Below are positions 3,930 to 29,897 of a stretch of DNA of 48,571 bases, one piece after another. The position numbers and the translations under genes are program-made. The stretch covers positions 1-48,571 of IMG/VR virus record IMGVR_UViG_3300048837_000831; one strand, written 5' to 3'. Position 1 is the first letter of the stretch, and every line of letters begins with the position of its first letter. The notes beneath the pieces are model-generated. The model was given only the letters and a program-made list of their open reading frames with translations, was not told the DNA's origin and did no database searches. The DNA is from a virus.

Positions 3930-3983
3930 ACGCGCTTCCGTCTGGCCGGCCTTTCTCCCCGTTCGAGGGGAGTGTCAACCCCC

Positions 3984-4164
3984 AAAACGGTGAAATAGCT
4001 ATTTCACCGTTTTGCCAAAAAGGGTGAAACCTATATTTCACCTTTTCTGCCATAATAAACGGTGAAATAGCTGTTTCACCCTTTCGCCTAAAAACGCCTC
4101 TTTTTCTGAAAATCTGCCGGATTTATCCCAAATCTGACCGAAAGGGTGAAATAGCTGTTTCACC
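3984..4164. repeat. Array of four 20-bp palindromes, GGTGAAA-N6-TTTCACC
   Basis: Copies are at 3989-4008 (GGTGAAATAGCTATTTCACC, perfect, extending to a 30-bp perfect palindrome at 3984-4013), 4023-4042 (centre CCTATA), 4061-4080 and 4145-4164 (both centre TAGCTG). Copy starts are 34, 38 and 84 bp apart. Flanks repeat AAAC or AAAG on the left and GTTT or CTTT on the right. All copies are noncoding. Likely binding sites for a dimeric protein: replication initiator, partition protein or repressor. Confidence 0.9.
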
Positions 4165-4178
4165 GTTTCTCGCGCCCT

Positions 4179-4202
4179 CTTATATATATATAAGTACTAG
4201 TA
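4179..4202. other. AT-rich palindromes (possible unwinding element)
   Basis: CTTATATATATATAAG is a perfect 16-bp palindrome, and it is followed by GTACTAGTAC, another perfect palindrome. The block sits just right of the palindrome array in otherwise GC-rich DNA. It could be a DNA-unwinding element of an origin; a strong promoter -10 region is the alternative. Confidence 0.45.
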
Positions 4203-4293
4203 CCTGTTACTCTGAAGAAAGAGAAGAGAAGAAAAGAATTAAGTGTTGAGTTCTGTATTCTGCGCTGCGCTTCGCGCGCGCTGAATCGACCAT

Positions 4294-4325
4294 GCACCTG
4301 CTCATTTTGGGCAGGTGCTTTTTTT
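4294..4325 (+). terminator. Intrinsic terminator after the repressor operon
   Basis: Stem GCACCTGC (4294-4301) / GCAGGTGC (4311-4318), 9-nt loop, followed by seven T. It faces rightward, so it ends the repressor/FxLYD transcript, or a short RNA starting in the AT-rich block, and insulates the rightward early promoter 45 bp downstream. Confidence 0.9.
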
Positions 4326-4334
4326 GCGCCTTTT

Positions 4335-4417
4335 GAATATTGACGCGACTAATTTAATATTAGACCCCCTTGACAAGATTAACGAAGGTTATTAAACTGT
4401 AAACCAAGTCAATATTC
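4335..4417. repeat. 10-bp inverted repeat flanking the rightward promoter
   Basis: GAATATTGAC (4335-4344) and GTCAATATTC (4408-4417) are exact reverse complements, 63 bp apart, on either side of the -35/-10 region. They could be paired operators for a looping regulator. The right arm would be in the 5' end of the early mRNA. Confidence 0.6.
4370..4398 (+). promoter_or_regulatory. Rightward early promoter (PR-like) with operator in spacer
   Basis: -35 TTGACA (4370-4375), 17-bp spacer, -10 TAAACT (4393-4398). The spacer holds TTAACGAAGGTT (4379-4390), the exact reverse complement of the site at 2539-2550. It drives the replication operon starting at 4435. Similarity with the leftward promoter at 2523-2495 suggests common repression. 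Confidence 0.85.
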
Positions 4418-4434
4418 AGATTTGGGAGCCAGAC

Positions 4435-4695
4435 ATGCAAAACGAAATTTCGACCGAGACCCTGACCGAGAAAGCGCACGGCGTTGCCGGTGTGGAAGCG
4501 TATCGCGGATACGAGATTGTGGACAAGGAATCCTACGTGGTGATCTGCCGCAACGCCGCCGTGGTGCAGTGCGCGCACACGCCGGAGCAGGCGCGCCAGA
4601 ACATCGACGAAATCATCGCTGAGCGCGATGCGCGCTTTCAGGCAAACCTCAAGAAGATGGGCCGGCGCGACAACAACCCGAACGACTTGATCTAG
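4435..4695 (+). CDS. First rightward early protein, 86 aa, unknown
   Basis: Begins MQNEISTETLTEKAHGVAG, is small, soluble and mixed alpha/beta (YRGYEIVDKESYVVICRN), and ends in a charged helix (ARQNIDEIIAERDARFQANL). It is translated from a TTTGGGAGC leader six bases upstream of the ATG. As the first gene after the PR-like promoter it might be an early regulator, but no DNA-binding motif is clear. An SOS-unlike GTGTCCGA palindrome hairpin (4704-4732) follows it. Confidence 0.75.
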   Translation: MQNEISTETLTEKAHGVAGVEAYRGYEIVDKESYVVICRNAAVVQCAHTPEQARQNIDEIIAERDARFQANLKKMGRRDNNPNDLI

Positions 4696-4703
4696 ATCGG
4701 CAT

Positions 4704-4732
4704 GGCGCGTGTCCGAGTTTCGGACACGCGCC
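4704..4732. other. GTGTCCGA palindrome / hairpin, copy 1
   Basis: The 19-mer GTGTCCGAGTTTCGGACAC (4709-4727) lies inside a 13-bp stem (GGCGCGTGTCCGA / TCGGACACGCGCC, loop GTT), followed by GTTTAG. It is in the gap between the 86-aa gene and the RecT-like gene. The stem could attenuate transcription, but the same core recurs at 16987, 34952 and 42241 in other gaps, so a protein-binding site is as likely. Confidence 0.7.
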
Positions 4733-4759: not shown

Positions 4760-5872
4760 ATGAGCAACCAACAACTCGCAGTCCGCGATAACAATACGCA
4801 GGTTTCGACTCGCTATAACGAAGCGGACATTCAGGCCGAGATGGGCATCCTCCGCGCTGCATTCCCAAAAATGGCTGATGATGTGCCGCCCGAGGGCTTG
4901 CGCGCCCTCATCATCGCGTCGAAGTTCTCCGGCCTCAATCCCTTTCGCGGCGAAATCTTCTACATTCCGAAAGTCGGCATCAGCGTCGCGTCGAAGATCA
5001 AAGCCGCCGACGCGGTGAGCTGGGCCGCAATGCACGGCAACACGCTCAACATCCGTTTCGAGACGCTGACCGAGCTGCACCCCGAATGGGATCAGGTCAA
5101 GCTGGACAGGGGAGACGTGGCCGAGATTTGCATCATCATCTCTTCAAAGCAGCGCAATGAATACTTCCGCTGGCGCTTGCAGGTGATTGATGAACTCAAG
5201 GCGCTGGGCTACACAGGCCTGGCACTTGAGAAGGAATTGAACGTGCGTTGCGGCAAGACCGCGCCGGAGACGCGCGCTGTCGGCATTGTCAAGACCGGTG
5301 AATTCTTCGGGAATTTGCCAAAGAGCGGCGCTGAAATGTTCACTCGCAAAGATCGTGCGCAAAAGCGCGCGCTTCAGAAGGCGCTCAACATCGGCGGCTT
5401 CGCCGCGCCTGACACGCGACAGTATGGCGGCGCAAAGATTGTCGAAGAGCCGGCGTCAGAGGCCACAGTTGAAGCGCCTTACCGCGTCGTTGAGGGCGGT
5501 GTATCCGGCGCGGCGGAGATGAACATCTACGGCGACGAACAGGGCGACGGCACGAGCGACGCCGGCGCGCCCGAACTCAAGCCGGTGAGCCAGGCTGACC
5601 GTGCCGCGCTGTCTTCGCTGCTCGACCGCCACAACGCGCTTGCGGAATTGTCGAAGGACGCCGCGAGGATGAACGATGAACAGAAGCGCGACTTCATCTC
5701 GAAGGTCGATGCGCTCATCGTTGATGTCAACACCGCAATGAGCGTGCGCGAACTGCCGGCGATTGAGCATGACGACAAGGTGAGCATTCGTTTCAAGCGC
5801 ATGACCACCGCTGTGAACGCCGCCATTGCCCACGACGACAAGGCGCCGCTGATGGAGGCTCAGCCGGCGTAG
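4760..5872 (+). CDS. RecT/Bet-like single-strand DNA annealing protein
   Basis: 370 residues from ATG 4760, with GCAGGAG seven bases upstream. The N-terminal half reads like the RecT/Redbeta family: LRALIIASKFSGLNPFRGEI, then FYIPKVGISVASKIKAADAV, then a later basic helix RKDRAQKRALQKALNIGGF. In this family the protein coats and anneals single-stranded DNA for recombination-dependent replication. The C-terminal 140 residues are acidic and linker-like (EEPASEATVE), then helical. No clear partner exonuclease is adjacent; the VRR-NUC protein at 13368 is the only candidate nuclease of this operon. Confidence 0.65.
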   Translation: MSNQQLAVRDNNTQVSTRYNEADIQAEMGILRAAFPKMADDVPPEGLRALIIASKFSGLNPFRGEIFYIPKVGISVASKIKAADAVSWAAMHGNTLNIRFETLTELHPEWDQVKLDRGDVAEICIIISSKQRNEYFRWRLQVIDELKALGYTGLALEKELNVRCGKTAPETRAVGIVKTGEFFGNLPKSGAEMFTRKDRAQKRALQKALNIGGFAAPDTRQYGGAKIVEEPASEATVEAPYRVVEGGVSGAAEMNIYGDEQGDGTSDAGAPELKPVSQADRAALSSLLDRHNALAELSKDAARMNDEQKRDFISKVDALIVDVNTAMSVRELPAIEHDDKVSIRFKRMTTAVNAAIAHDDKAPLMEAQPA

Positions 5873-6426: not shown

Positions 6427-7023
6427 ATGACGATGACACTGCCGCCCCTGACGCACGTTGAACACGAGACGCTGCACGACTGCGAAGCGCAGATCGAGCG
6501 CGCCCTGGCTGACATTCGCAGCGCGTGGAAGCGCATCGGCGCGGCACTGGCGCGCATCCACGCAGGCCGGCTCTACCGCGAATTCTGCGACACGTTCGAT
6601 GAGTATGTCGAATCGCGCTGGAGCCTGCCGCGAAGTAGCGCATACGAATGGATTGAGGCCGCCGGCGTGGTGATTGCGATGGAGCGACCCGCAATCATCG
6701 ACGGCGAGATGCGCGTGATCGAGCCGCCCTCTCGCATCAGCCACGCAAGAGAGCTATCGAAATTACCGCCAGCGCGACAGGCCGAGGCGCTGCACGAAGC
6801 GCGGCAGGTTGCCACACGGCAGGGCAGGCAGGAGCCGACGGTCTACGAGGTGCGGCGCGTGGTGTTCGCAAAGTTGGACATCGCGCCGCCGCAGTCTCCG
6901 GCAGAAAGTGCGCGAGACAGACAGCAACGCGCCGTGATGGATCACATCCGGCGCATGTGGGCGCAACTGGACACGGAGAGCCGGCGCCAGTTGGCCGAAG
7001 AACTTCAGATTTGGGAATCATGA
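6427..7023 (+). CDS. Helical DNA-binding-like protein, 198 aa (ParB/DUF3102-like?)
   Basis: Starts 2 bases after the SWIM gene stop. The N-terminal half is helical, with a segment reading like the plasmid/phage HTH proteins that begin with a 'grape-size' helix pair: ALARIHAGRLYREFCDTFDE, then YVESRWSLPRSSAYEWIEAA. The second half has ISHARELSKLPPARQAEALH, which resembles the ParB/KorB HTH linker. It overlaps the methyltransferase by 4 nt, and its last codons contain that gene's AGATTTGGGA leader. A DNA-binding role is likely; the exact family is uncertain. Confidence 0.65.
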   Translation: MTMTLPPLTHVEHETLHDCEAQIERALADIRSAWKRIGAALARIHAGRLYREFCDTFDEYVESRWSLPRSSAYEWIEAAGVVIAMERPAIIDGEMRVIEPPSRISHARELSKLPPARQAEALHEARQVATRQGRQEPTVYEVRRVVFAKLDIAPPQSPAESARDRQQRAVMDHIRRMWAQLDTESRRQLAEELQIWES

Positions 7024-8582
7024 AGAAACGATCTTTCATCACCGTCACAGATCAATTTTGCGGGGCCGGCGGCTCATCCATCGGCGCTGTGAAAGCCGGC
7101 GCTGAGTTGCGCCTGGCGCTGAACCACTGGCAACTCGCAGTCAATACGCACAACGCCAACTTCCCGAACGCCGCGCACGACTGCACGGACATCAGTGCGT
7201 GCGATCCGCGCCGGTATCCAACGACCGACATTCTGATCACCTCGCCAGAGTGCACGAATCACTCATTGGCAAATGGCAAGCGCAAGCCGTCGAAGCAGTT
7301 TGATATGTTCAACCCGCATGCGGTTGATCCCGCTGAAGAGCGCAGTCGCGCAACGATGTGGGACGTGCCGCGCTTCGCTGAGTATCACGACTACCGCATC
7401 ATCGTCGTTGAGAACGTGGTCGATGCGCGCAAGTGGGTGATGTGGGATGCATGGCTGATGGCTATGCACGCGCTCGGCTATGAGCATCAGTGCGTGTATT
7501 TCAACAGCATGCACGCGCACCCGACGCCGCAATCACGCGACCGCATGTATGTCGTGTTCTGGCAGCGCGGCCAGCGCCGGCCCAATCTCGACATCACGCC
7601 GCGCGCCTATTGCCCGAAGTGCGGCATCGATGTCGACAGCGTGCAGAGCTGGAAGCCCGGGCGCTCGTTTGGCCGCTATCGCAAACAGTATGTGTATTGC
7701 TGCCCGAAGTGCGCATCAGTCGTCGAGCCGTATTACTACTGCGCATTCAACGCAATCGACTGGAGCCTGCCGGCGCAGCGCATCGGGGATCGGGCGCGGC
7801 CCTTGAAAGAGGCGACCCTGCGCCGCGTGCGCATCGGCCTGGAGAAGTTCTCAGGCACGCATCTGCTGGCGATGAAAGACAGTGCGGCGAAGGATTGGGC
7901 GCTGGGCTTGCATGAGCCGATGACCACGCAGGTTGCCAGCTCATCACAGCATGCGCTTGTGACGCCGTTCCTGATCGACACGCAGTTCACGCATTCACGC
8001 GGCGACCGGAGCGCAGACCTGCGCGAGCCGATGCGCACGCAGACAGGGCAGCAGTCGCGCGCGATTGTGGTGCCGCCATTCATCACCAGCTACTACGGCA
8101 CAAACGAGGCGACGCCGGCGACCGATGCGCTGCCCACTGTGACCACACACGACCGGCACACGGTTGTCATCCCGCCCTTCATCGTCAGCCAATACAACCG
8201 GCCGGCGGGCATTGGTGCAGCGGTGCGCGATCTGCGTGAGCCGATGCCGACTGTGCCGGCGATGGCAGTGCACCACGTTGTCACGCCGCCGTTCATCATG
8301 AACGCGCAGGCCGGCGCACAGCCGACTGCAATGCATGAGGCCATGGCAACGCTACTGGCAAGTGCCAATCACAAGTGGCTGGTTGAGCCTGGCGAATCAG
8401 TGAAAGTTGAGGACTGCGGCTTCAGGATGCTGGAGCCGGAAGAGTGCGGCGCCGCAATGGCATTTCCGTCGGATTACAAGGTGCTGGGCGGCAAGCGCGA
8501 TCGCGTGAAGCAATTTGGCAACGCCGTCACGCCGCCGGTGATGGGCATTCTGATGCAACGCTGCATGGAGTCGTTGCGATGA
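7020..8582 (+). CDS. Cytosine-C5 DNA methyltransferase, atypical motif IV
   Basis: 520 residues from ATG 7020 (ATGA overlap with the upstream stop). Motif I is DQFCGAGGSS (11-20), motif VI ENV (131-133), motif VIII QSRDR (171-175), and the C-terminal motifs are RMLEPEECGAAMAFP and VKQFGNAVTPPV. Motif IV, normally PCQ, reads S-P-E-C (C78) in ITSPECTNHS. A zinc ribbon (C198, C201, C227/C228, C231) is inserted, and residues about 290-460 contain four degenerate repeats of the form LxEPMxT...VVxPPFI. Expected reaction: SAM-dependent methylation (or another C5 modification) of phage DNA. It is coupled to the helicase downstream. Confidence 0.9.
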   Translation: MKKRSFITVTDQFCGAGGSSIGAVKAGAELRLALNHWQLAVNTHNANFPNAAHDCTDISACDPRRYPTTDILITSPECTNHSLANGKRKPSKQFDMFNPHAVDPAEERSRATMWDVPRFAEYHDYRIIVVENVVDARKWVMWDAWLMAMHALGYEHQCVYFNSMHAHPTPQSRDRMYVVFWQRGQRRPNLDITPRAYCPKCGIDVDSVQSWKPGRSFGRYRKQYVYCCPKCASVVEPYYYCAFNAIDWSLPAQRIGDRARPLKEATLRRVRIGLEKFSGTHLLAMKDSAAKDWALGLHEPMTTQVASSSQHALVTPFLIDTQFTHSRGDRSADLREPMRTQTGQQSRAIVVPPFITSYYGTNEATPATDALPTVTTHDRHTVVIPPFIVSQYNRPAGIGAAVRDLREPMPTVPAMAVHHVVTPPFIMNAQAGAQPTAMHEAMATLLASANHKWLVEPGESVKVEDCGFRMLEPEECGAAMAFPSDYKVLGGKRDRVKQFGNAVTPPVMGILMQRCMESLR

Positions 8583-11140: not shown

Positions 11141-11989
11141 ATGAGCGGACGCGCCACAACAGCCGTATACGACCACAGCACGCACGATGCAACGCGCCTG
11201 CTGGTGATGCTTGCAATTGCCAACGCCGCCAATGACGCGTGTGTGGCGTGGCCTGGTATGGACGAGATCGCCAGAAACGCGCGCGTCTCTGAGCGCCAGG
11301 CGCAGAACGTTCTGCGCGACCTTGAAGCGAGCGGTGAGCTGTATCGCTCGCTAGGCGGCGGCCGGCGCAACACGACGCGCTATCTCATCACCTGCGGCAT
11401 GGACGCCGAGCGCATCGCCGGCGCGCTCGTGCAGTGGCTGGACGTGAAAGCTGACCAGGCCGGCGAGATCGCTGCGCAGTGGGTTTCGCGCATGACTCAG
11501 GCAAAGGCAAAAGCCGATGTCCAGCCTACCGAGAAGCCGGTCGAAGCGCCAGTTGGGGTGCCAGTCGAGAAACCACCAAAAGAAGCGCCGGCCAAAGCGC
11601 CGTCCGTCAAAGCGCCGCCCGTTAAGGCTCCTGATGCGCCGAAGTCACCGACGCCTGAGCGCCGGCGCGATCCGCTTTTTGATGCGGTGGCCGATGTTGC
11701 GGTGATGAATCCAGCACTGTGCGGCTCGCGCATCGCGAAGGCCACGAATGCGCTGCGCAAGGTTGATGCGACACCTTCGCAAGTGTCCGAGTTTCGGACA
11801 TGGTGGCTATCGGACACATGGCGCGCATCGAACACACCGGTGCCCACGCCGGAGCAAATCCTGAGCAACTGGGAGAAGGCGCGGCAGGGCGTGACGCCCA
11901 AACAAAGCGCGCCGGCACAAAAGCAGAGCGTGGCCGAGCGCGTGATTGGCCGGCGCATGGGCGCGCTGGGCTATGAGCGCGCGCAATAG
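11141..11989 (+). CDS. Winged-helix replication initiator-like protein, 282 aa
   Basis: N-terminal HTH_36/DnaD-type domain: helix RLLVMLAIANAANDACVAWP, then MDEIARNARVSERQAQNVLR, then DLEASGELYRSLGGGRRNTT (wing). A Pro/Ala/Lys linker (about residues 125-170, repeats of KAP/VKAP) joins it to a C-terminal helical domain. This plan is that of phage replication initiators (lambda O / DnaD-like), and the next gene looks like a helicase loader, as in many phages. An intragenic GTGTCCGA palindrome is at 11783-11800. Confidence 0.75.
   Translation: MSGRATTAVYDHSTHDATRLLVMLAIANAANDACVAWPGMDEIARNARVSERQAQNVLRDLEASGELYRSLGGGRRNTTRYLITCGMDAERIAGALVQWLDVKADQAGEIAAQWVSRMTQAKAKADVQPTEKPVEAPVGVPVEKPPKEAPAKAPSVKAPPVKAPDAPKSPTPERRRDPLFDAVADVAVMNPALCGSRIAKATNALRKVDATPSQVSEFRTWWLSDTWRASNTPVPTPEQILSNWEKARQGVTPKQSAPAQKQSVAERVIGRRMGALGYERAQ
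11783..11800. other. GTGTCCGA palindrome, intragenic copy
   Basis: GTGTCCGAGTTTCGGACA, an exact match to 18 bases of the intergenic 19-mers, inside the initiator gene near its 3' end. Another half-site, TCGGACAC, follows at about 11810-11817. If the palindrome is a protein-binding site, this copy might link to replication control. Confidence 0.6.
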
Positions 11990-12000
11990 GAGATTTGGGA

Positions 12001-12840
12001 ATGGCGACTGAAGAAGAGATTTACGCAGTGATGGCCTACCTCGCTGATATGTATCCGTATCACGCGGAGAAGATCGGCGAGCGCGCCTACGAGCGCCAGC
12101 TCACACACTACGTCGAGCAACTGGCGCACTTCGATGCGCGGGTGCTGAGCGCCGCTGCAAAGCAGCATGTCGCCGGCAGCGCGTTCTACCCCGCCGTGAG
12201 CGAGCTTGTGTCCGCCGCCGACACGCTCACCAATTTGGCGCGCCGCTCAGTAGGCGACGAGCCGCCCGATGCTGCCGCCGCATGGCAACAGTGCGCGAAA
12301 GTCATCATCAACGACTATGCGCCGGACAGCGCCAAACTCGCGCGGCTCCATCCGCTGGTGGCAAAGGCGATTGAGGCGTTTGGCCTGACGCGCTTTTATA
12401 ACCGCATGATCGACGATGAGCCGACAAACTTTGCACAGTTCAGAGACATTTACAACGCATACCTCAAGCGCAGTGAAACCGAGGCGCGGATGTTGCCGAT
12501 GAGCAATGCAGTCATTGCGCAGCTTGCAGAGGCGATGAGCGTGAGCAAACAAACCGCGCTTCCAGCGCCTGATGACAGCCCACGCCGGCAGGATGCGGCG
12601 CTTGATGAATTGCGTGAGCGTGGATATGAACGCATCAACAATCCGCGCAAACCCGCCTTCAGCGGCGAGATGCTGACCCGCCAACAGATCGAACGACGCG
12701 AGGGCATTACGCGCTTGCAGAAGCGTGAGCGCGAGTTGCAAGAGGCGCTAGCCAACGAGTCTGACGCGCACAAACGCCGGATGATCGAGATCATGCTGGT
12801 CGGCGTGCGCAGGACACTGGAACGAGAGGTGCAAGCATGA
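12001..12840 (+). CDS. Helicase-loader-like protein (G39P / DnaC-loader type), 279 aa
   Basis: ATG 12001, with AGGAG and the AGATTTGGGA element just upstream. The N-terminus is helical (MATEEEIYAVMAYLADMYPY, then typical HFDARVLSAAAKQHV). The stretch LHPLVAKAIEAFGLTRFYNR followed by FAQFRDIYNAYLKR fits the signature seen in phage loader proteins following DnaD-like initiators (HP-x-V/I...G...F...Y). The C-terminus is a long charged coiled coil. Expected role: bring the host replicative helicase to the phage origin. Confidence 0.6.
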   Translation: MATEEEIYAVMAYLADMYPYHAEKIGERAYERQLTHYVEQLAHFDARVLSAAAKQHVAGSAFYPAVSELVSAADTLTNLARRSVGDEPPDAAAAWQQCAKVIINDYAPDSAKLARLHPLVAKAIEAFGLTRFYNRMIDDEPTNFAQFRDIYNAYLKRSETEARMLPMSNAVIAQLAEAMSVSKQTALPAPDDSPRRQDAALDELRERGYERINNPRKPAFSGEMLTRQQIERREGITRLQKRERELQEALANESDAHKRRMIEIMLVGVRRTLEREVQA

Positions 12841-13371: not shown

Positions 13372-13757
13372 CACGCGGCTTCACCCAGCGATATCAGCGC
13401 ATGGGCGCGCAGGTTGCGCGCGAAGCGCGTGAGCGCAAGGCGGTGATGGATGCACTTGCGCCGAAGAGCGAGGCAGAGTTGCGGCAACACATCATCGATG
13501 CATTGCGGCAAATGGGGTGGGTTGCGCGCGACTTGAGCCAGCGCCGCAAGGTCGAGGGCGGGTTGAAGGACATGCCCGACATACTCGCGTGGAAGATGGG
13601 CCGCACGCTCATGATCGAGACGAAGCACGGGCGCGGCAAGTTGCGCGCCGGCCAGGCTGAATTTGCCGAGGATATCGCGCCGCACTGCGACCCGCGCACG
13701 CTCATCTACTGCACGGCGCGGTCGATGGATGACGTGCTTGCGGCGCTGGGGCTGTAA
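13368..13757 (+). CDS. VRR-NUC domain nuclease, 129 aa
   Basis: The segment from KVEGGLKDMPDILAWKMG to MIETKHGRGKLRAGQAEF gives the VRR-NUC/PD-(D/E)xK core: the aspartate of MPDIL, E-x-K in IETK, and the downstream Q helix. Stand-alone phage VRR-NUC proteins cleave branched DNA such as Holliday junctions. It is the last gene of the early operon, a common place for a resolvase that prepares DNA for packaging. It overlaps the 43-aa gene by 4 nt. Confidence 0.88.
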   Translation: MTRGFTQRYQRMGAQVAREARERKAVMDALAPKSEAELRQHIIDALRQMGWVARDLSQRRKVEGGLKDMPDILAWKMGRTLMIETKHGRGKLRAGQAEFAEDIAPHCDPRTLIYCTARSMDDVLAALGL

Positions 13758-13966
13758 CTGGTTTTATAGAACGAAAGGCGTATTTGTTGCATTGTTTGTG
13801 GCAGGAATGGGTCTTTTAGTCCTTGCTCACCATAGGCTATCCCATTAGGATTTAGAAGGGTGCAGTCTGTCTTTGGTAGTGCGACTATCTTAAAACAAAG
13901 TTGCATCATTGGCATCGTCACTGCACTTTCATTGTCATTCCGCGAACTATCGTCAGTGCCTGATAT
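13758..13966. other. 209-bp AT-richer gap between early and late regions
   Basis: Composition is clearly more AT-rich than the flanks. No gene with a good start is visible. A minus-strand frame across it (stop at 13706) reads like non-phage filler. No terminator is seen after the VRR-NUC gene. It may be remnant DNA from an insertion or a regulatory region for the late switch. Confidence 0.5.
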
Positions 13967-14182
13967 ATGTCGCAGCAAAACCCCTCCCCACGTAAACACA
14001 AAATAGATCGACCACGTCTCAAGCGCAAGTTCTCACGCGCGCTTATCAACGTCATGAATGATATGGAGAATTCATCCGGCGTGCCGCGCGAGGTGCGCCT
14101 TGTCAACATTGATGACGGGCGCAAAGTGAAGCCCACCGTGCTCTACGAGTATGACCCCGTTTCTGATGACGAGCAAGAATGA
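13967..14182 (+). CDS. Small Arg/Lys-rich protein, 71 aa
   Basis: The first 26 residues are very basic (SPRKHKIDRPRLKRKFSRAL) and the remainder is acidic, ending DPVSDDEQE. Arg-rich N-termini of this type occur in RNA-binding antiterminators, and the gene ends 22 bases before the first late promoter/leader element, the position where lambda-like phages carry Q. This is positional inference only. No ribosome site is visible before ATG 13967, so the start, and even the gene, is uncertain. Confidence 0.5.
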   Translation: MSQQNPSPRKHKIDRPRLKRKFSRALINVMNDMENSSGVPREVRLVNIDDGRKVKPTVLYEYDPVSDDEQE

Positions 14183-14203
14183 AGGATATAACTCAGGTAG
14201 ATA

Positions 14204-14287
14204 TATAATCCACCCAACCGAATAAGCGGCTGTAACAACCGAGTTTCTTGGCGGCCACATCTTTTGATGTGGCCGCTTTTGCTTTTT
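14204..14287 (+). promoter_or_regulatory. Late promoter-leader-terminator element 1
   Basis: -10 TATAAT (14204-14209) without a good -35, then a leader beginning CCACCCAACCGAAT and AAGCGGC, then a strong terminator (14251-14287). The first 27 bases match element 2 (22428-22454) at 21 positions. A short leader ended by a terminator in front of late genes is the layout of antitermination-controlled late operons (lambda Q type, or put-like RNA). Alternatively it encodes a small RNA of about 70 nt. Confidence 0.65.
14251..14287 (+). terminator. Intrinsic terminator before the lysis module
   Basis: 11-bp stem GCGGCCACATC (14251-14261) / GATGTGGCCGC (14266-14276), loop TTTT, then TTTTGCTTTTT. It is only 13 bp upstream of the endolysin start, so late transcripts must read through it or start after it. 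Confidence 0.93.
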
Positions 14288-14300
14288 CCCTGTTTCTCTC

Positions 14301-15434
14301 ATGACGAAATACAAAGTCATTGCCATAGGTGGACTCCGGGCGCGCTTCAACCCGCGCATGGATGCGCCAGTTCTCGGCATTGTTGCCGAGGGCGCGACGA
14401 TAGACGTGGTGCGCATCGAAGGCGGGTGGGCGACTGTGGCACTCGTGGCCGGCGGCGTGACGCTCGCACCCAGCGCGATTGCGACCGACAGCGGCTACTG
14501 CTACCTGCGTGAGCGCGCCGGCGGTGACGTGTATCTCACGCCGGCACTCAACCCCATTCCGTTGCCCCATCCACAACCCCAGCCGCACCGCATCCCCGTG
14601 CATCCGAAATACCAGTTGGGCGTGAACGTGCTGCACTCGGCAGAACTGGCAGAGGACGCCTTTGCGCGTGGTTGCCGCGCGGCGCTCATCATGAACAACC
14701 AGCTCGCGGCCTACAACCTCGCCCGCACTTATCCCGACGGCTGGGTGATGGTGCGCGAGTATCACACCGGCAAGCTGTCCCCCCAGCAGATGGCCGACAT
14801 GCTGGGTTTGCGCGGTGCGCCGCCGAACCTGATCTTCACCGGCGCGAACGAGAGCGACACCTACAGCTACGGCACACCGGAGCAAATCCGCGAGCGCTTC
14901 GATTTCGACCGCGGCTGGGCCGAGATCATCCACGGGCGCAATCCTGCTTCCAAATGCGCCATCGGCACGTTCTCTCACGGCTGCCCTGACTTCACACGCG
15001 AGGACATCAGGCAGGCCTTGCGCGACACCTACATCGCGTATGCCAACGACCATCCAGACTGGGTGATGCTGGATTTTCACCTTTACACAAAGGGCAAGCG
15101 CTTGCCAGGTCACCCGCCGGCAGACGCGCCCATCATCGGCGCGGAATGGTTTGAGATGCGCTACGAGAAGGCTTACAGCGAAACCAGCCTTGACGCGCGC
15201 GTCACGAGTGTGTGCGGTGAGCATGGGGTGGAGGGCGGCGCCGGCGGCTTTGCGTGGGCGGGCTACACGCCCGATCAGTTCCGTGAGTGGGCAAGCTGGT
15301 GGATGGACCAGCAAAAGACGAGCGCAACGCCGCTCTTGTGCGCCACGCTCTACACGCTCTCATGGCATCAGGGCTGGCAGGGTTACTGGATGCAGGGGTA
15401 TCTCGACACCCTGACCGAACTGTGGAGGTCATGA
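14301..15434 (+). CDS. Endolysin: SH3-like + glycoside-hydrolase (TIM barrel) domain, 377 aa
   Basis: Residues 1-75 look like a bacterial SH3 domain (YKVIAIGGLRARFNPRMDAP, then IDVVRIEGGWATVAL). A Pro/His linker (PLPHPQPQPHRIPVHP) leads to a (beta/alpha)8-type catalytic region, with TGANESDTYSYG (acid), DHPDWVMLDFHLYTKG and APIIGAEWFEM (acid) on successive strands, comparable to GH25/GH39-like lysins. It should cut peptidoglycan glycan strands. It is the first gene after the late leader and overlaps the C39-like peptidase by ATGA. The exact GH family is not certain. Confidence 0.75.
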   Translation: MTKYKVIAIGGLRARFNPRMDAPVLGIVAEGATIDVVRIEGGWATVALVAGGVTLAPSAIATDSGYCYLRERAGGDVYLTPALNPIPLPHPQPQPHRIPVHPKYQLGVNVLHSAELAEDAFARGCRAALIMNNQLAAYNLARTYPDGWVMVREYHTGKLSPQQMADMLGLRGAPPNLIFTGANESDTYSYGTPEQIRERFDFDRGWAEIIHGRNPASKCAIGTFSHGCPDFTREDIRQALRDTYIAYANDHPDWVMLDFHLYTKGKRLPGHPPADAPIIGAEWFEMRYEKAYSETSLDARVTSVCGEHGVEGGAGGFAWAGYTPDQFREWASWWMDQQKTSATPLLCATLYTLSWHQGWQGYWMQGYLDTLTELWRS

Positions 15435-15979
15435 TGTGCAACACATCCATCGCACCGCTGTCGCAGCGCGACGCGCGCTGGGCCAAGACGCTACTGGGCA
15501 ACTCCAACGTGTCCACCATCGGCGCATACGGCTGCCTCATTACGAGCATGGCGATGCTCGCAGGCCTGACGCCGGACGTGCTGAACCTGCGCATGAAGCC
15601 GCGCGGCTTCCAGCCCGCCGGATCCTCGTGCGAAGCGTGCGCCGCCACGTTCGATGTGCAGAAGTTTGCACCGAGCGCGCCGGCGCTCATGCGCGCCACG
15701 CAGGCATATCCCTATACCCCATTCCCCAAGCCGGAGATTGCGCAGCTCGTGGCACACCTGCGGGAAGGGCGGCCGGCGATTCTGGAGGTGGACATGGTGC
15801 CATACCCCAGAAACAACCAGCACGATCAGCATTTCGTGCTGGCAGTGGCTGCATTCGGGCATGACGGCGCAGAGCAGATCGTCATCAACGATCCGTGGTT
15901 TGGCGATCAGGTGACGCTCTCACCGCGCTACGGCACGACGCTGGCCGCTGCGCTCGTGCGCGTCATTTATTACGCATGA
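15431..15979 (+). CDS. C39-like papain-fold peptidase, probable cell-wall endopeptidase
   Basis: 182 residues from ATG 15431 (a second ATG follows at once). The catalytic Cys is C35 in IGAYGCLITSMAML, the His is in NQHDQHFVLAVA (about residue 136), and the Asp/Asn is in IVINDPWFG. The start PLSQRDARWAKTLLG is characteristic of the peptidase C39-like family. Together with the glycosidase upstream it forms a two-enzyme lysis set, one for glycan and one for peptide bonds. No signal peptide, so a holin is needed. Confidence 0.85.
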   Translation: MMCNTSIAPLSQRDARWAKTLLGNSNVSTIGAYGCLITSMAMLAGLTPDVLNLRMKPRGFQPAGSSCEACAATFDVQKFAPSAPALMRATQAYPYTPFPKPEIAQLVAHLREGRPAILEVDMVPYPRNNQHDQHFVLAVAAFGHDGAEQIVINDPWFGDQVTLSPRYGTTLAAALVRVIYYA

Positions 15980-16013
15980 ATTTCTTTTCTAAATTCTTGT
16001 TTGGAGGTGAATT

Positions 16014-16370
16014 GTGAACGAACTTGAGACCGTAAAACTGTTGACCCAGCTTGCAACGGGCGGCCTGGCCATGGTGTTTGTGTCCTGGCTTCTGGAGCGG
16101 GTGCCGGCATTTCAGGCAATATCGAGTGAGGCAAAGGCGTGGACGGTGCTGATGCTGACGCTCATCGTGTCGCTTGCGAGCCAGGCTGCGCTGAATCTGG
16201 TGCCGCCAGAGGTGCTGCTGGCGCTTGAGCCATACGTCAAAGTAGCGCTCGGCGTGATTACCGCCTGGCTGACTTCGCAAACCTATCACGCCGTGCAAAA
16301 GCGTGTGAGCAAGCAATCCTCAGCGCAATCCTCAGCGCAGGACGAAGCGCAGGACGAAGCGCAGGGCTAA
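16014..16370 (+). CDS. Holin-like protein, 118 aa
   Basis: GTG start at 16014 with a strong GGAGGTGA ribosome site. Two or three hydrophobic segments: TQLATGGLAMVFVSWLLERV, then AWTVLMLTLIVSLASQAALN, then VKVALGVITAWLTSQTYHA. The tail is hydrophilic (repeats of SAQ and DEAQ). The size and topology, and the position between lysins and spanin-like gene, fit a phage holin that permeabilises the inner membrane. Confidence 0.8.
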   Translation: MNELETVKLLTQLATGGLAMVFVSWLLERVPAFQAISSEAKAWTVLMLTLIVSLASQAALNLVPPEVLLALEPYVKVALGVITAWLTSQTYHAVQKRVSKQSSAQSSAQDEAQDEAQG

Positions 16371-16681: not shown

Positions 16682-16985
16682 TTCCGCCACGCTTACCGCG
16701 CTTTCTGCACTTGTCGCTGCCGTTGCGACCGCCGGCGTGACTTACATGACCACGCGCAACAAGGCGCGATCTGATGAGGTGTCACTGCTCAGAGATGAAG
16801 TGACGCGCCTGCACAAACAGACGCGCGAACAGAAAGACGAATGGGAAGCCGAGCGTGAGGAGCTGCGGAAAGAAATCGCATCCCTGCGCAAAGAGAACGC
16901 CGAAGGGCGCATTGAGAACGCGAAACTGTATCGCGTCCTGCGCAAGCACGGCATTGACGTGGAGGCTGAGACAGCCTCTGCATAG
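16674..16985 (+). CDS. Membrane-anchored coiled-coil protein (Rz/i-spanin-like), 103 aa
   Basis: N-terminal hydrophobic helix (LTALSALVAAVATAGVTYMT) followed by a long charged coiled coil (VSLLRDEVTRLHKQTREQKD to EIASLRKENAEGRIEN). This is the architecture of inner-membrane spanins, although an o-spanin lipoprotein partner is not adjacent. If the host has a single membrane, it may act differently. The gene is followed by a GTGTCCGA palindrome. Confidence 0.65.
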   Translation: MVDSATLTALSALVAAVATAGVTYMTTRNKARSDEVSLLRDEVTRLHKQTREQKDEWEAEREELRKEIASLRKENAEGRIENAKLYRVLRKHGIDVEAETASA

Positions 16986-17007
16986 CGTGTCCGAGTTTCG
17001 GACACGC
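16985..17007. other. GTGTCCGA palindrome, copy 2
   Basis: The 19-mer GTGTCCGAGTTTCGGACAC (16987-17005), identical to 4709-4727, is extended by GC on both sides and lies in the 42-bp gap between the spanin-like and dockerin-protein genes. No T-run follows, so this copy is unlikely to be an intrinsic terminator. Confidence 0.75.
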
Positions 17008-20917: not shown

Positions 20918-21853
20918 CTATCCACCTCGTGTGGCCTCTTTCGGGCTAAGGCCATACTCTGCCAGTTGTTCGCGAATGACCCTTGTTTTGCTATGCGCAT
21001 ACACCACGCGCGTGGTCTCAGGCGATGCGTGACCAAGATATGCCTGCACGCTCTCCAGCGGCATGCCTTCGTTTAGCAGTTGCGTGGCGCGGTAATGCCT
21101 GAACATGTGGGGCGAGACGTTTGGCACATTACACGCCTTGCCGGCTGTTTTGATGATGCGCCACCCAGATTCTCGCGTCAACCCTCCACCCTTGCCCCGC
21201 CGATGAGAGATGAACAGGGCAGGGAAGGCATCATCTCGTGAATCGCAATATGCACGGATTGCGGATTGCGCTTCAGGGGTGAGAAACAGCATGCGCTGCT
21301 TGTCGCCTTTACCGGTGATCAGCACTTCGACAGCCTGGCCGCCAGCGACATCTTTGCGCGTGAGTGACAGCACCTCGCTGATGCGACCTGCGGACGCATA
21401 GAGCGTGTGCATGAGTGCCCGGTTGCGCAGCCACTCAAGCTTCAACTGAGCCGTCCATTTGTCATTGTTTTGGATCGACGGCTCTGCGTCGAAATAGTTC
21501 ACTACATCGGGCAACTGCGCCGGCGCTTGTTTGTGCTTGTAGCCCTCGCGCGTCTTGCCTCTACGATCCTTCAGCCTCACCTCGGCTGCCACAAGGTCGA
21601 TTTGATCACCATGCGTGACACGATGCGCTATGAAGCGGCGCAATGCAGACAAATAGAGTTGCCGCGTGGATGGGGCAAACTTCTGACGCTTCAGTCGCGC
21701 ATTGAAATCCGAGAACGAGTTGGCGTCAAGCGGAATCTTGAGCGATTCAAACTTTGACAGCGCAGCGCGATAAGCAAGCTTCGTGCCATCAGCAGCATCA
21801 AGTCCTTCCAGAAAGGACATGGCAGCAGGGGAGAGTGAATTGCCGTTAGCCAT
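20918..21853 (-). CDS. int: Tyrosine recombinase / integrase, 311 aa
   Basis: SAM-like N-terminal domain (residues 1-105) and a complete catalytic set: R157 (AGRISEVL), K182 (GKGDKQR), H249-x-x-R252 (HMFRHYRA), H275 (LGHAS) and the nucleophile Y285 (VVYAHS). It is XerC/D-like in length, 311 aa without the arm-binding domain of lambda Int. It lies on the opposite strand to the late genes, between terL and the structural module, and shares a 46-bp divergent promoter region with the GIY-YIG gene. It may integrate the phage, resolve multimers, or belong to an inserted cassette. Confidence 0.93.
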   Translation of the reverse strand: MANGNSLSPAAMSFLEGLDAADGTKLAYRAALSKFESLKIPLDANSFSDFNARLKRQKFAPSTRQLYLSALRRFIAHRVTHGDQIDLVAAEVRLKDRRGKTREGYKHKQAPAQLPDVVNYFDAEPSIQNNDKWTAQLKLEWLRNRALMHTLYASAGRISEVLSLTRKDVAGGQAVEVLITGKGDKQRMLFLTPEAQSAIRAYCDSRDDAFPALFISHRRGKGGGLTRESGWRIIKTAGKACNVPNVSPHMFRHYRATQLLNEGMPLESVQAYLGHASPETTRVVYAHSKTRVIREQLAEYGLSPKEATRGG

Positions 21854-21887
21854 GCGTTCATCATATCACTAAATAGGTATTGTGTGT

Positions 21888-21893
21888 TATAAT
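21888..21893 (+). promoter_or_regulatory. Extended -10 promoter of the GIY-YIG gene
   Basis: TGTTATAAT (TGn-extended -10, TATAAT at 21888-21893) lies 7 bp before ATG 21900, so the mRNA would be leaderless or nearly so. On the opposite strand a possible TATGAT (integrase -10) lies in the same 46-bp region. Confidence 0.6.
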
Positions 21894-21899
21894 GAATTC

Positions 21900-22397
21900 A
21901 TGGAGATGGTGACACTAAAAGCGCTACTAGAAGGCGCAGACCCAGACGGTCAGATATATGTCCTTCGCGACAAAGAGTGCTTTTTGTATGTTGGCAAGAC
22001 CGAAAGCGGAATTGCATATCGATGGCTGAATGATTTTTGCGGGCGACTTCACTCGTATCGAGATGGCGGATGGTTTGGCAGTGATCGCGTCGCGAATCTA
22101 GTGATTGACATGATGCCTGAGTCTCTTGGGTGGGTGCTGGACTGCTACTCACGGGACGAGGCTGCACAACTGTTTTATCCAGAATACCGGCGCATCATGA
22201 TGAAGTGCGCCGGGCTTGATCTTGACTTCGCCATCGACAGACTTAATCTCCTCACGATTGAGCAGATGGCCATCACTGTTTTGCGCCCATGCCTGAATGT
22301 CTCTGGCAACTCAAAAGGAAACTCCCTGCCCGACAAATACAAATATAAGGGCAAGCGCATGCGTGAAGCCGTTGAGGTCGTGCAGATACCAGAATGA
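21900..22397 (+). CDS. GIY-YIG nuclease-domain protein, 165 aa
   Basis: GQIYVLRDKECFLYVGKTES (from residue 17) followed by R41 gives the GIY-YIG core: IYV, LYVGKT, and an Arg on the next helix. A Glu/Asp-containing part follows (EEAQLFYPEYRR-like region, about 105). The DNA is visibly less GC-rich than its neighbours, and the gene has its own promoter, which fits a mobile (homing-endonuclease-like) or moron gene. Start 21900 is preferred; ATG 21906 is possible. Substrate unknown. Confidence 0.72.
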   Translation: MEMVTLKALLEGADPDGQIYVLRDKECFLYVGKTESGIAYRWLNDFCGRLHSYRDGGWFGSDRVANLVIDMMPESLGWVLDCYSRDEAAQLFYPEYRRIMMKCAGLDLDFAIDRLNLLTIEQMAITVLRPCLNVSGNSKGNSLPDKYKYKGKRMREAVEVVQIPE

Positions 22398-27351: not shown

Positions 27352-29897
27352 ACAAGCCAACCCTCACAAAACTCGTTCAGCGCGCCCTTGCATCTCGCGC
27401 CGTGGCCGAAGTGCGCACTGTGGAGAAGGCGCACACCGGCGCGATGGTGGCGCTGTATCCATCAATGGATGATGCAGAGACGCTTGCGACCGCTATGGGC
27501 AATGTCGAGTGGCCGCAGGGCGCAACTATCACTGAACCAAACGAATATCACATCACGCTCGCTTATCTGGGTGAATCGGCTGAGATTGACGAGTCGCGCC
27601 GCGCGGCGCTGTCCGAGACCGCAGAGCAACTCGTCACGCTTGAACTGCCGCCCCTGACATTCAACGGCGTGGCGCGCTTCAATGGCAGCGACGAAGACGG
27701 TGACGCGATTGTGATTCTGTTCAGTGAGCCGATGGTAAATGACCTTGCGACCGTCGCACGCCGCGACATGGGCGATGCGAGCAAGCATTCATTCCTTGCT
27801 CACATGACCCTGGCCTACATCCCGAAGGACGCCCCCACCCCGACCGTGCCGCCACCATTTGAAGCACTGAAGATGGACCGCATGGCGCTGGTGCTTGCCG
27901 ATGTGACGTTTGCAGAATTCAAATTGACGAACGCTTCAAGCAATGCTGTGGCACTCAAGGCCAACTTTGGCGCGCGCGCTGGCCAGGTCATCGCCGGCAA
28001 CCTCGCACGCGGCGCGGGCGGCAAGTTCACCGCTGCGGGCAGCGCCGGCGCAGGTGCATCGTCGGCGAGCACAGCGAACACGGGCCGCGCGCAAAAGCGC
28101 ACAGCGGCGCTCGTAGCCTCCGGCGTCAGCAGCGACGATGCTGCGGCACTTGAAACATTTGCCAAAGGCGGCACATTGTCCGCCGCTCAACAGCAGAGCC
28201 TTGAGAAGGCCGGCCTCGTGCGCACCGGCGACGATGGCGCGGCTCGGCTTGCCCCCAACGCGCGGGGCTTTCTCAGGGCGCTCCGAAAGGGCGACGCGCG
28301 CGCGGCGGCGGATGCGGCAGGCGCTGCACGCGATGCCGGCAACCGTCGCACCGAAGCGGCTGCACGCAAGGCCGAAGCCGCACGCAAGCGCGCCGAGCGG
28401 GAGGCGAAGCGAAATCAGCCGAAGCCGGCGAAGGGGCGCGCGCCGAAACAACCGAAGCCTGACCGCACGCCTGAGCAACTGCAAAAGATCGGCAACCGCG
28501 TCGAAGAAGTGGACGCGCAGATTGACGACGCTGTGACGAACGAACGCACGCTGAACAACGCGCAACTGACAAAAGCATTCAACCGGCTTGAAGAACTTGA
28601 AACTCAACTCGGCAAGCTGGGTGACGGCGATGCGCAGCGTGCCGCGCACGCGGCCATCGAGGCCGCGCGAGAACGGTTGGAAGCCATGCGCGATGGCAAG
28701 CCCGACCCCAAGGCGGCGCGTGAACCCATCCCGCTGGACGGTGACCGGCGCATTGCCATCGCCACCCGCGAGGCGACGCAGGACGCCGCCATCGAGGTGT
28801 TCAAGGACGCAAGCGGCGCGCCTCGGTGGCTACTCATTTCAAGCAATGCCTATCAGGACAAGGAAGGCGAGATCGTCTCGCAGGCCGCGCTGGAAGCGGA
28901 CGTGGCGCGCTGGTGGGATCGCCGTGAGAAAGGCATCACGCGCCGGGATCCTTTGCGCTGGTGGCATGTCGGCAGCGTCTTGACCGAGAAGGCAAAAGGC
29001 TGGCAGGACGTGGAAGCCGGAGAGGGCATGGATATCGGCCAATGCGACTTCAGGATGCTACACGGCCGGATGCTCGTTGAGTCGGGCACATTCGACACGC
29101 CGGAACTGGCCGAGGCGTTTGCGCCGCATATGAAAGCCCTGCGCGTGTCGCTGGGCTTCGCAACCCCTATATGGCAACCCGTTGAGGGTGTGTATCAGGA
29201 CATTCACAGTTTCGAACGCTCGCTCCTGCCGATGGCGAAGGAAGCTAACGCGCTGACGGGCGGCATTATTTTGAAAGGAGAAAAGACCATGACCAAGATT
29301 CAAGACAAAGTCAAAGCCTTCGCCAGTATCGCCGGCGATGGCGCTGCCAACACCCTTGCGGGCTTTCTGAACGCGGCTGAGACCGTGGACAAGCAGGCCG
29401 AGGGCGCTGGGCTGAAGCACAAGGAAGGCGAAACGGCACAACCTGAAGGCACAGTCGAAGGCGAAACCCTCACCCCGGCGGCCATCGAAAGCAAGGCCGA
29501 AGGTGACACCGCTGAGGGCGAGATGCCGGCTGAAGAGGTGACGGAAGAAGGCGACGAGGATCCCGCCTTGATGGTGGGCGACATGACGCCGCAAGAGCTG
29601 GCCGGCGCGCTGGCTGAGCCGCTTGCACAGGCGATGGCCGCCGCGCTCGCGCCGATGATGAAGGCGTTTGAGGATCAGAGCGCCGTCGTGAAGGGCTTGA
29701 GCGAGAAGCTCGAAAGTGTGTCGAAGGAAGCGAAGGCGGCGCAGGCGAAGGTGAAGGAGCTGGAAGGCGACGCGCCCACCGGCTACCGCGCTTCGCAAGA
29801 CACCGAAACCGTGAGCAAGGAAGACAGCATCGACCAGCAGACGGTGGATGAGCTGACCGCGATCGCCGCGCAATTCCTTGCGGCCCGAAAAAAGTAG
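27348..29897 (+). CDS. Fusion: 2H phosphoesterase + XkdF-like prohead protease + scaffold, 849 aa
   Basis: Residues 28-200 are a 2H (LigT-like) phosphoesterase with both motifs: H68-I-T70 (HITLAYLG) and H152-M-T154 (HMTLAYIP). Residues 215-460 are an Ala/Lys/Arg-rich, partly coiled-coil linker. Residues about 480-640 fit XkdF-like prohead proteases: RWWHVGSV (H540), GQCDFRMLHGRMLVESGTF, RVSLGFATP (S601), then FERSLLPMAKEAN. Residues 648-849 form an acidic scaffold domain that has its own ribosome site. The 2H part could hydrolyse 2',3'- or 2',5'-linked (cyclic) nucleotides, as T4 anti-CBASS Acb1 does; here this is inference. Confidence 0.85.
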   Translation: MNKPTLTKLVQRALASRAVAEVRTVEKAHTGAMVALYPSMDDAETLATAMGNVEWPQGATITEPNEYHITLAYLGESAEIDESRRAALSETAEQLVTLELPPLTFNGVARFNGSDEDGDAIVILFSEPMVNDLATVARRDMGDASKHSFLAHMTLAYIPKDAPTPTVPPPFEALKMDRMALVLADVTFAEFKLTNASSNAVALKANFGARAGQVIAGNLARGAGGKFTAAGSAGAGASSASTANTGRAQKRTAALVASGVSSDDAAALETFAKGGTLSAAQQQSLEKAGLVRTGDDGAARLAPNARGFLRALRKGDARAAADAAGAARDAGNRRTEAAARKAEAARKRAEREAKRNQPKPAKGRAPKQPKPDRTPEQLQKIGNRVEEVDAQIDDAVTNERTLNNAQLTKAFNRLEELETQLGKLGDGDAQRAAHAAIEAARERLEAMRDGKPDPKAAREPIPLDGDRRIAIATREATQDAAIEVFKDASGAPRWLLISSNAYQDKEGEIVSQAALEADVARWWDRREKGITRRDPLRWWHVGSVLTEKAKGWQDVEAGEGMDIGQCDFRMLHGRMLVESGTFDTPELAEAFAPHMKALRVSLGFATPIWQPVEGVYQDIHSFERSLLPMAKEANALTGGIILKGEKTMTKIQDKVKAFASIAGDGAANTLAGFLNAAETVDKQAEGAGLKHKEGETAQPEGTVEGETLTPAAIESKAEGDTAEGEMPAEEVTEEGDEDPALMVGDMTPQELAGALAEPLAQAMAAALAPMMKAFEDQSAVVKGLSEKLESVSKEAKAAQAKVKELEGDAPTGYRASQDTETVSKEDSIDQQTVDELTAIAAQFLAARKK
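29289..29897 (+). CDS. Nested scaffolding protein (internal in-frame start), 202 aa
   Basis: ATG 29289 is in frame inside the fusion gene and is preceded by AAAGGAG (29274-29280), 8 bases upstream, one of the best ribosome sites in the window. It begins MTKIQDKVKAFASIAGDGAA. The composition is acidic (EGDTAEGEMPAEEVTEEGDE) and ends in a coiled coil and Lys-rich tail, typical of scaffolds. It parallels lambda C/Nu3, where the scaffold is translated from inside the protease gene. Confidence 0.75.
   Translation: MTKIQDKVKAFASIAGDGAANTLAGFLNAAETVDKQAEGAGLKHKEGETAQPEGTVEGETLTPAAIESKAEGDTAEGEMPAEEVTEEGDEDPALMVGDMTPQELAGALAEPLAQAMAAALAPMMKAFEDQSAVVKGLSEKLESVSKEAKAAQAKVKELEGDAPTGYRASQDTETVSKEDSIDQQTVDELTAIAAQFLAARKK

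Follow-up and report, generated by a model that had tools for sequence, protein, structure and literature searches.

The question raised by this temperate phage genome is what four copies of a single palindrome are doing side by side in noncoding DNA. The window, by which we mean the whole 48,571-nucleotide stretch analysed, is one whole virus record with a 127-bp repeat at both ends, the unit being 48,444 bp at 60% GC, with recognised genes for terminase, tail proteins, an integrase, a lambda O-like initiator, and a G39P-like helicase loader. The exact sequence GGTGAAA-N6-TTTCACC occurs four times in the record (3989-4008, 4023-4042, 4061-4080, and 4145-4164), all within 176 bp (3989-4164) of the noncoding gap from 3930 to 4434, and a further copy at 15062 carries 2 mismatches. 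An earlier note had described this array and offered an origin, a partition site, or a multi-operator switch as its function. From the sequence features set out below we favor the first of these, a phage replication origin of the iteron type, at a confidence of about one half; the partition site fares poorly, and the multi-operator switch is weaker than it looked.

The array and the adjoining AT-rich block

The four exact copies stand as described, and in dinucleotide-preserving shuffles of the gap the motif appeared in 0 of 2,000; palindromes of any 7-6-7 form, of which the gap holds 4, came up at a mean of 0.05 per shuffle and a maximum of 2. Genome-wide there are 13 such 7-6-7 palindromes, with GGTGAAA as the sole recurring arm. 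The array is also the top-scoring tandem repeat of the genome, and no second cluster of at least five both-strand 8-mers within 300 bp was found elsewhere in it. The 505 bp of noncoding DNA were correctly noted, and on the ORF-based gene list on which the ranking rests, this is the longest of 11 gaps of at least 60 bp between 1378 and 42212.

Centre to centre, the palindromes are 34, 38, and 84 bp apart, and their similarity extends over about 28 bp, as AAAS-GGTGAAA-N6-TTTCACC-STTT. The first (3983-4014) contains GGTGAAATAGCTATTTCACC and is perfect over 32 bp, not the 30 bp given before; the second (4019-4046) is GGTGAAACCTATATTTCACC, with one A/G-rich and one T-rich flank; the third (4057-4086) and fourth (4139-4168) form the left and right arms of a 30-nt inverted repeat, 93% complementary. 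Apart from some deviations in copy 2, all eight half-sites follow RAAASGGTGAAAYAG. Symmetry is imperfect at the outer bases of copies 2 to 4: C or G stands there in every half, with copy 3 having C/C and copy 4 G/G, a pattern that would fit separate half-sites.

Beside the last palindrome lies a candidate DNA-unwinding element (4179-4240), made up of the AT-rich palindromes CTTATATATATATAAG (4179-4194) and GTACTAGTAC (4194-4203) and a purine tract (4214-4238). These elements had been noted before, the palindromes as nested; both palindromes and the tract are there, with the palindromes abutting instead. The least stable 60 bp of the genome start at 4181 (-65.4 kcal/mol, versus a mean of -93.2), and its AT-richest 300-bp window starts at 3962. 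Clustered, near-identical sites next to an easily opened block, here four palindromes or eight half-sites, are the anatomy of an iteron-type origin. Against this reading, it is no rarity for neighbouring noncoding DNA to be AT-rich in a genome of 60% GC, and the gap at 2452-2570 is nearly as unstable as the block at 4181. Other AT-rich gaps (13740-14310, 15860-16030, and 21840-21900) held no arrays, and no DnaA-box match was found in the gap at 3930-4434.

Regulatory readings of the gap

The gap also contains signals of another kind. Upstream of the array runs an operon that opens with an HTH_3 repressor-like gene (2571-2945, + strand; scanned as 2517-2945) and continues with a 60-aa ORF and a 261-aa gene, and to the right of the array come, in order, an intrinsic terminator-like hairpin with a T run (4294-4318, +), which would close rightward transcription through the array, a rightward early promoter-like site (4370-4398, +), and the early genes. 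The spacer of this promoter-like site holds the operator-like TAACGAAGGTTA (4380-4391), and that of the leftward early promoter-like site (2495-2523, -) holds TAACTTCGGTTA (2502-2513 on the + strand). Both are of the form TAAC-N4-GTTA and occupy the same place in the two sites, and the genome has no further TAAC-N(3-6)-GTTA. Since this element is confined to the two early promoters, it is more likely than the GGTGAAA array to provide the immunity operators of the repressor, and the array would serve something else. Hairpins of the terminator-like class that share a GTCCGA..TCGGAC stem are present at 4704-4732, at 16985-17007, and at about 11783-11800, with similar ones in the relative G003 (L037 16261-16285 and L038 4114-4142).

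This arrangement bears directly on the multi-operator switch. Neither early promoter includes the array; both carry TAAC-N4-GTTA instead of GGTGAAA palindromes, and the only promoter-like hit over the palindromes (- strand, 4079-4052) is weak, at 9 of 12. That the array might be an operator cluster through which a second regulator, of phage or host, acts on the neighbouring operons nevertheless draws on real features, in that 20-bp palindromes are typical of dimer operators, 206 bp separate the end of the array from the early promoter-like site downstream of it, and the occurrence of GTGAAA palindromes in an unrelated phage (see below) would fit a host-encoded binder; on balance we regard such a role as rather unlikely.

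A parS-like centromere for partition of a plasmid-like prophage is much harder to sustain. Palindromes in multiple copies in a noncoding gap would suit one, and a 198-aa protein had been put forward as ParB-like. However, neither ParA AAA_31 (PF13614) nor ParB_N (PF02195) has a match in the record, the 198-aa protein included, in searches that matched 14/14 and 10/14 control genomes, respectively, against 0/1 each for this record, ParM/ParR-type systems lying outside the search. Moreover, the genome has an integrase gene, so the prophage probably integrates, and G003 keeps the 198-aa protein without having GGTGAAA sites. We consider a centromere highly improbable.

A different use of the same DNA would be at the level of RNA, for which the P4 CI RNA and P1 c4 RNA are known precedents as antisense immunity RNAs. 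Here the array would form the untranslated 3′ end of the repressor operon, with rightward transcripts ending at 4294-4318 and palindromes 3 and 4 paired into a 30-nt stem displaying UCCCAAAUCUGA; the displayed segment would pair with the ribosome-binding leaders at 2160, 4416, and 7005, and the antisense RNA would block these three early-gene leaders in the prophage. The basis for this is TCCCAAATCTGA (4126-4137, +), a possible antisense segment between palindromes 3 and 4 and the exact complement of the leader element TCAGATTTGGGA. The leader element has four exact copies in the genome, three of them 3-9 nt upstream of start codons (2160-2171, -; 4416-4427, +; 7005-7016, +) and one inverted in the array (4126-4137, -); the genes served are the leftward gene at 2150, the gene at 4435 that opens the rightward operon, and the methylase gene at about 7020. 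Allowing up to 2 mismatches there are 7 matches, a number reached in 0 of 100 shuffles. For a low-GC 12-mer, four copies are unusual, as 20 order-3 Markov controls gave 0-2 12-mers with at least three copies each; the window holds other three-copy 12-mers, several from the array itself. In addition, the stem between palindromes 3 and 4 folds at -52.5 kcal/mol, against -29.6 for local hairpins alone, that stem turns the C/C mismatch of copy 3 and the G/G mismatch of copy 4 into C-G pairs, and the terminator-like hairpin is on the right strand for the rightward transcript.

However, the complementarity, exact over 12 nt to three leaders, does not translate into outstanding duplex energies: two leaders rank 8th and 11th of 48 start regions and the third falls outside the best 12. 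An antisense RNA needs a single stem, not four equal palindromes. Further, no rightward promoter-like site was found inside the gap before 4294, no Rfam family reached the gathering score (microRNA-family matches to the palindromes were far below the cut-offs), and for the 12-mer leaders shared in G003 the inverted partner was not found. Taken together, the antisense reading strikes us as unlikely. If true, it would mean that the repressor transcript brings an immunity RNA with it. Less probable still, and in our view a long shot, is that the locus does both jobs, the DNA acting as origin and the RNA, as the 3′ end of the repressor transcript, acting as an antisense regulator whose 12-nt segment silences several early genes; the repressor transcript would then also make an RNA-based immunity lock over the origin.

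Some observations on the leaders and their genes stand apart from these readings. At 7005 the leader element runs over the final codons of the 198-aa gene, and the end of that gene is different in the relative G001. The DNA (C5-type) methylase gene (7020-8582) has the 198-aa gene on one side and the helicase gene on the other; since these two are adjacent in G001, it looks inserted. In the rightward operon of G003, an intergenic leader (GCGGGACGTTAAACACGC followed by a ribosome-binding site) is repeated, at about 242, 1526, 1932, 2726, and 3492 of L038.

Relatives, an unrelated phage, and the replication genes

Ten relatives were collected, nine through the terminase (G001-G005 and G007-G010) and one, G006, through the 198-aa protein; none came through the RecT-like 370-aa protein or the initiator, neither of which had a match in the phage collection searched. 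G001 and G002, the closest (terminase identity 77%), and G003 (70%) have many late genes and some early ones in common with the window. The earlier note had proposed to look for the motif in related phages and host plasmids. GGTGAAA-N6-TTTCACC is found in 0 of the 10 relatives' records at up to 2 mismatches, and blastn with the array gave no match in phages and plasmids. The contigs of G001 and G002 stop short of this place, within the gene that follows the array, and say nothing about the motif there; their initiator is a different one, at 27% identity to that of the window. The gene order of G003 appears to close on itself, and it shares the 198-aa (43%), 161-aa, and nuclease proteins with the window; its initiator is only 17% identical, and it has no GGTGAAA palindromes. 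Because the 198-aa protein is kept where the motif is missing, these sequences hint, if weakly, that the binder is a protein that differs between phages, such as the initiator, rather than the conserved 198-aa protein. G003 does have a six-site both-strand cluster of its own (L037:19566-19748), with copies of TGTGCCACTACCA; the DNA there looks like an open frame that encodes VPLPKSGSGT-like repeats and, as an apparently coding repeat, was not counted as an origin.

A looser form of the pattern does recur outside these relatives. Searches of viral_contigs for the paired exact pattern and for GGTGAAAYAGCTRTTTCACC gave nothing, and with a looser requirement of two GTGAAA-N6-TTTCAC palindromes 8-38 bp apart, the 47-kb phage G011 was the only other viral contig. 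Its palindromes (29028-29084) are in a noncoding gap that also contains three direct repeats and the least stable 60 and 100 bp of that genome (from 29234). Next to it is a primase/helicase gene for a 616-aa protein with matches to the NrS-1 polymerase HBD, DUF5906, and the PHROG DNA primases. While the GTGAAA core common to both phages was built into the search, the location was not. By tblastn, window ORFs of at least 70 aa had 0 matches in G011, and with no protein in common the likeness is one of anatomy, not descent; either a binder common to both comes from the host or the likeness is convergent. With its palindromes, three direct repeats, and AT-rich DNA, the G011 region (L058 9730-9917) is an origin candidate in its own right.

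Among cellular sequences (genome_contigs), the looser palindrome pair occurred in 20 stretches. Eleven come from one Porphyromonadaceae bin, as short GTGAAA/TTTCAC tandem palindromic repeats (L008, L009, L014, L015, L017, L019, L021, and L024-L027), and the other nine, in unrelated contexts, are tandem repeats or pairs that flank genes. No replication domains were seen in the 10 proteins flanking 6 of the 20 loci.

The replication genes of the window itself also bear on the origin reading. The 282-aa O-like initiator (11141-11989, +) has an HTH_36-like domain and profile matches to PHROG 391 (2.1e-13) and PHROG 1032 (1.3e-11), and directly after it comes the G39P-like loader (12001-12840, +; scanned as 11995-12840), which matches PF11417 at 24 bits, with a cut-off of 22. 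A search for an iteron cluster inside the initiator gene found none, only a two-copy 15-mer. Solved structures offered nothing useful for the initiator, the loader, or the 198-aa protein, and a single-sequence structure model of the initiator (mean pLDDT 42.6) was not relied on. With these genes, the origin reading can be put as a sequence of steps. Each 28-bp palindrome would be the site of a protein dimer (half-site RAAASGGTGAAAYAG), and the O-like initiator is the likely dimeric binder. With all four sites occupied, the resulting nucleoprotein complex would put strain on the AT-rich block at 4179-4240 until it opened; a DnaB-type helicase, delivered by the G39P-like loader, would then enter, and replication would begin at the array. 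Placed just upstream of the early promoter at 4370-4398, such an origin could be helped to open by early transcription and should be idle in the repressed prophage.

What sustains the origin among the functions first proposed is the dimer-site-like half-sites, the adjacent least stable 60 bp, the presence of an O-like initiator with a G39P-like loader, and the same anatomy in an unrelated phage. What counts against it is that the initiator gene is 7 kb away, that the motif is not conserved, and that the gap also accommodates AT-rich promoter-like and terminator-like sites; for these reasons our confidence stays close to the midpoint. The GC-skew check once suggested for locating the replication start turned out uninformative: the minimum, at 5083, is near the gene-strand switch, and third-codon-position skew lends no support. 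Should the array be an origin and nothing more, only its sequence would be new, the kind of site being an ordinary one.

Comparison with known origins

Several characterised origins have parts of this anatomy. The type I iterons of phage P4 are probably GGTGAACAG, and the half-site here resembles GGTGAAACAG. No D5/P4-alpha-type primase-helicase was found among the window proteins given to Pfam or PHROGs, with several small ORFs outside both; a primase-helicase does adjoin the G011 array. The PLE satellite origin, which works with a RepA_N initiator, is a noncoding region of semi-palindromic repeats, the bound repeat having 13-bp inverted arms (PMC7145576); palindrome-like repeats in noncoding DNA are common to both, whereas the initiator family is another, with no RepA_N match seen in this phage.

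For lambda, the origin consists of four iterons and an AT-rich region inside the O gene (PMC7466680). The present locus is alike in having four sites beside an AT-rich region and an O-like initiator (PHROG 391) in the genome; it is unlike in that the lambda iterons have another sequence and are within O, while the array is noncoding and 7 kb from the initiator gene.

A parallel in layout is offered by SPP1, which has an initiator, a G39P loader, and an intergenic oriR about 13 kb from the origin inside gene 38 (PMC6316719). As with SPP1 oriR/oriL (G38P/G39P/G40P), repeats are joined to an AT-rich unwinding element, and, as with oriR, the array is noncoding and stands apart from the initiator gene, in a genome that encodes a G39P-family loader. 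The SPP1 sites are direct repeats in two origins, and the phage has its own DnaB-type helicase, whereas here there are palindromes in one array, and no DnaB-type helicase was recognised among the window proteins scanned. Since the sites are palindromic, not direct repeats, we do not class the locus as an SPP1-type origin and say only that it would work like one: a candidate origin of a temperate phage that, like SPP1 oriR and unlike the lambda origin, lies away from its initiator gene and not within it.
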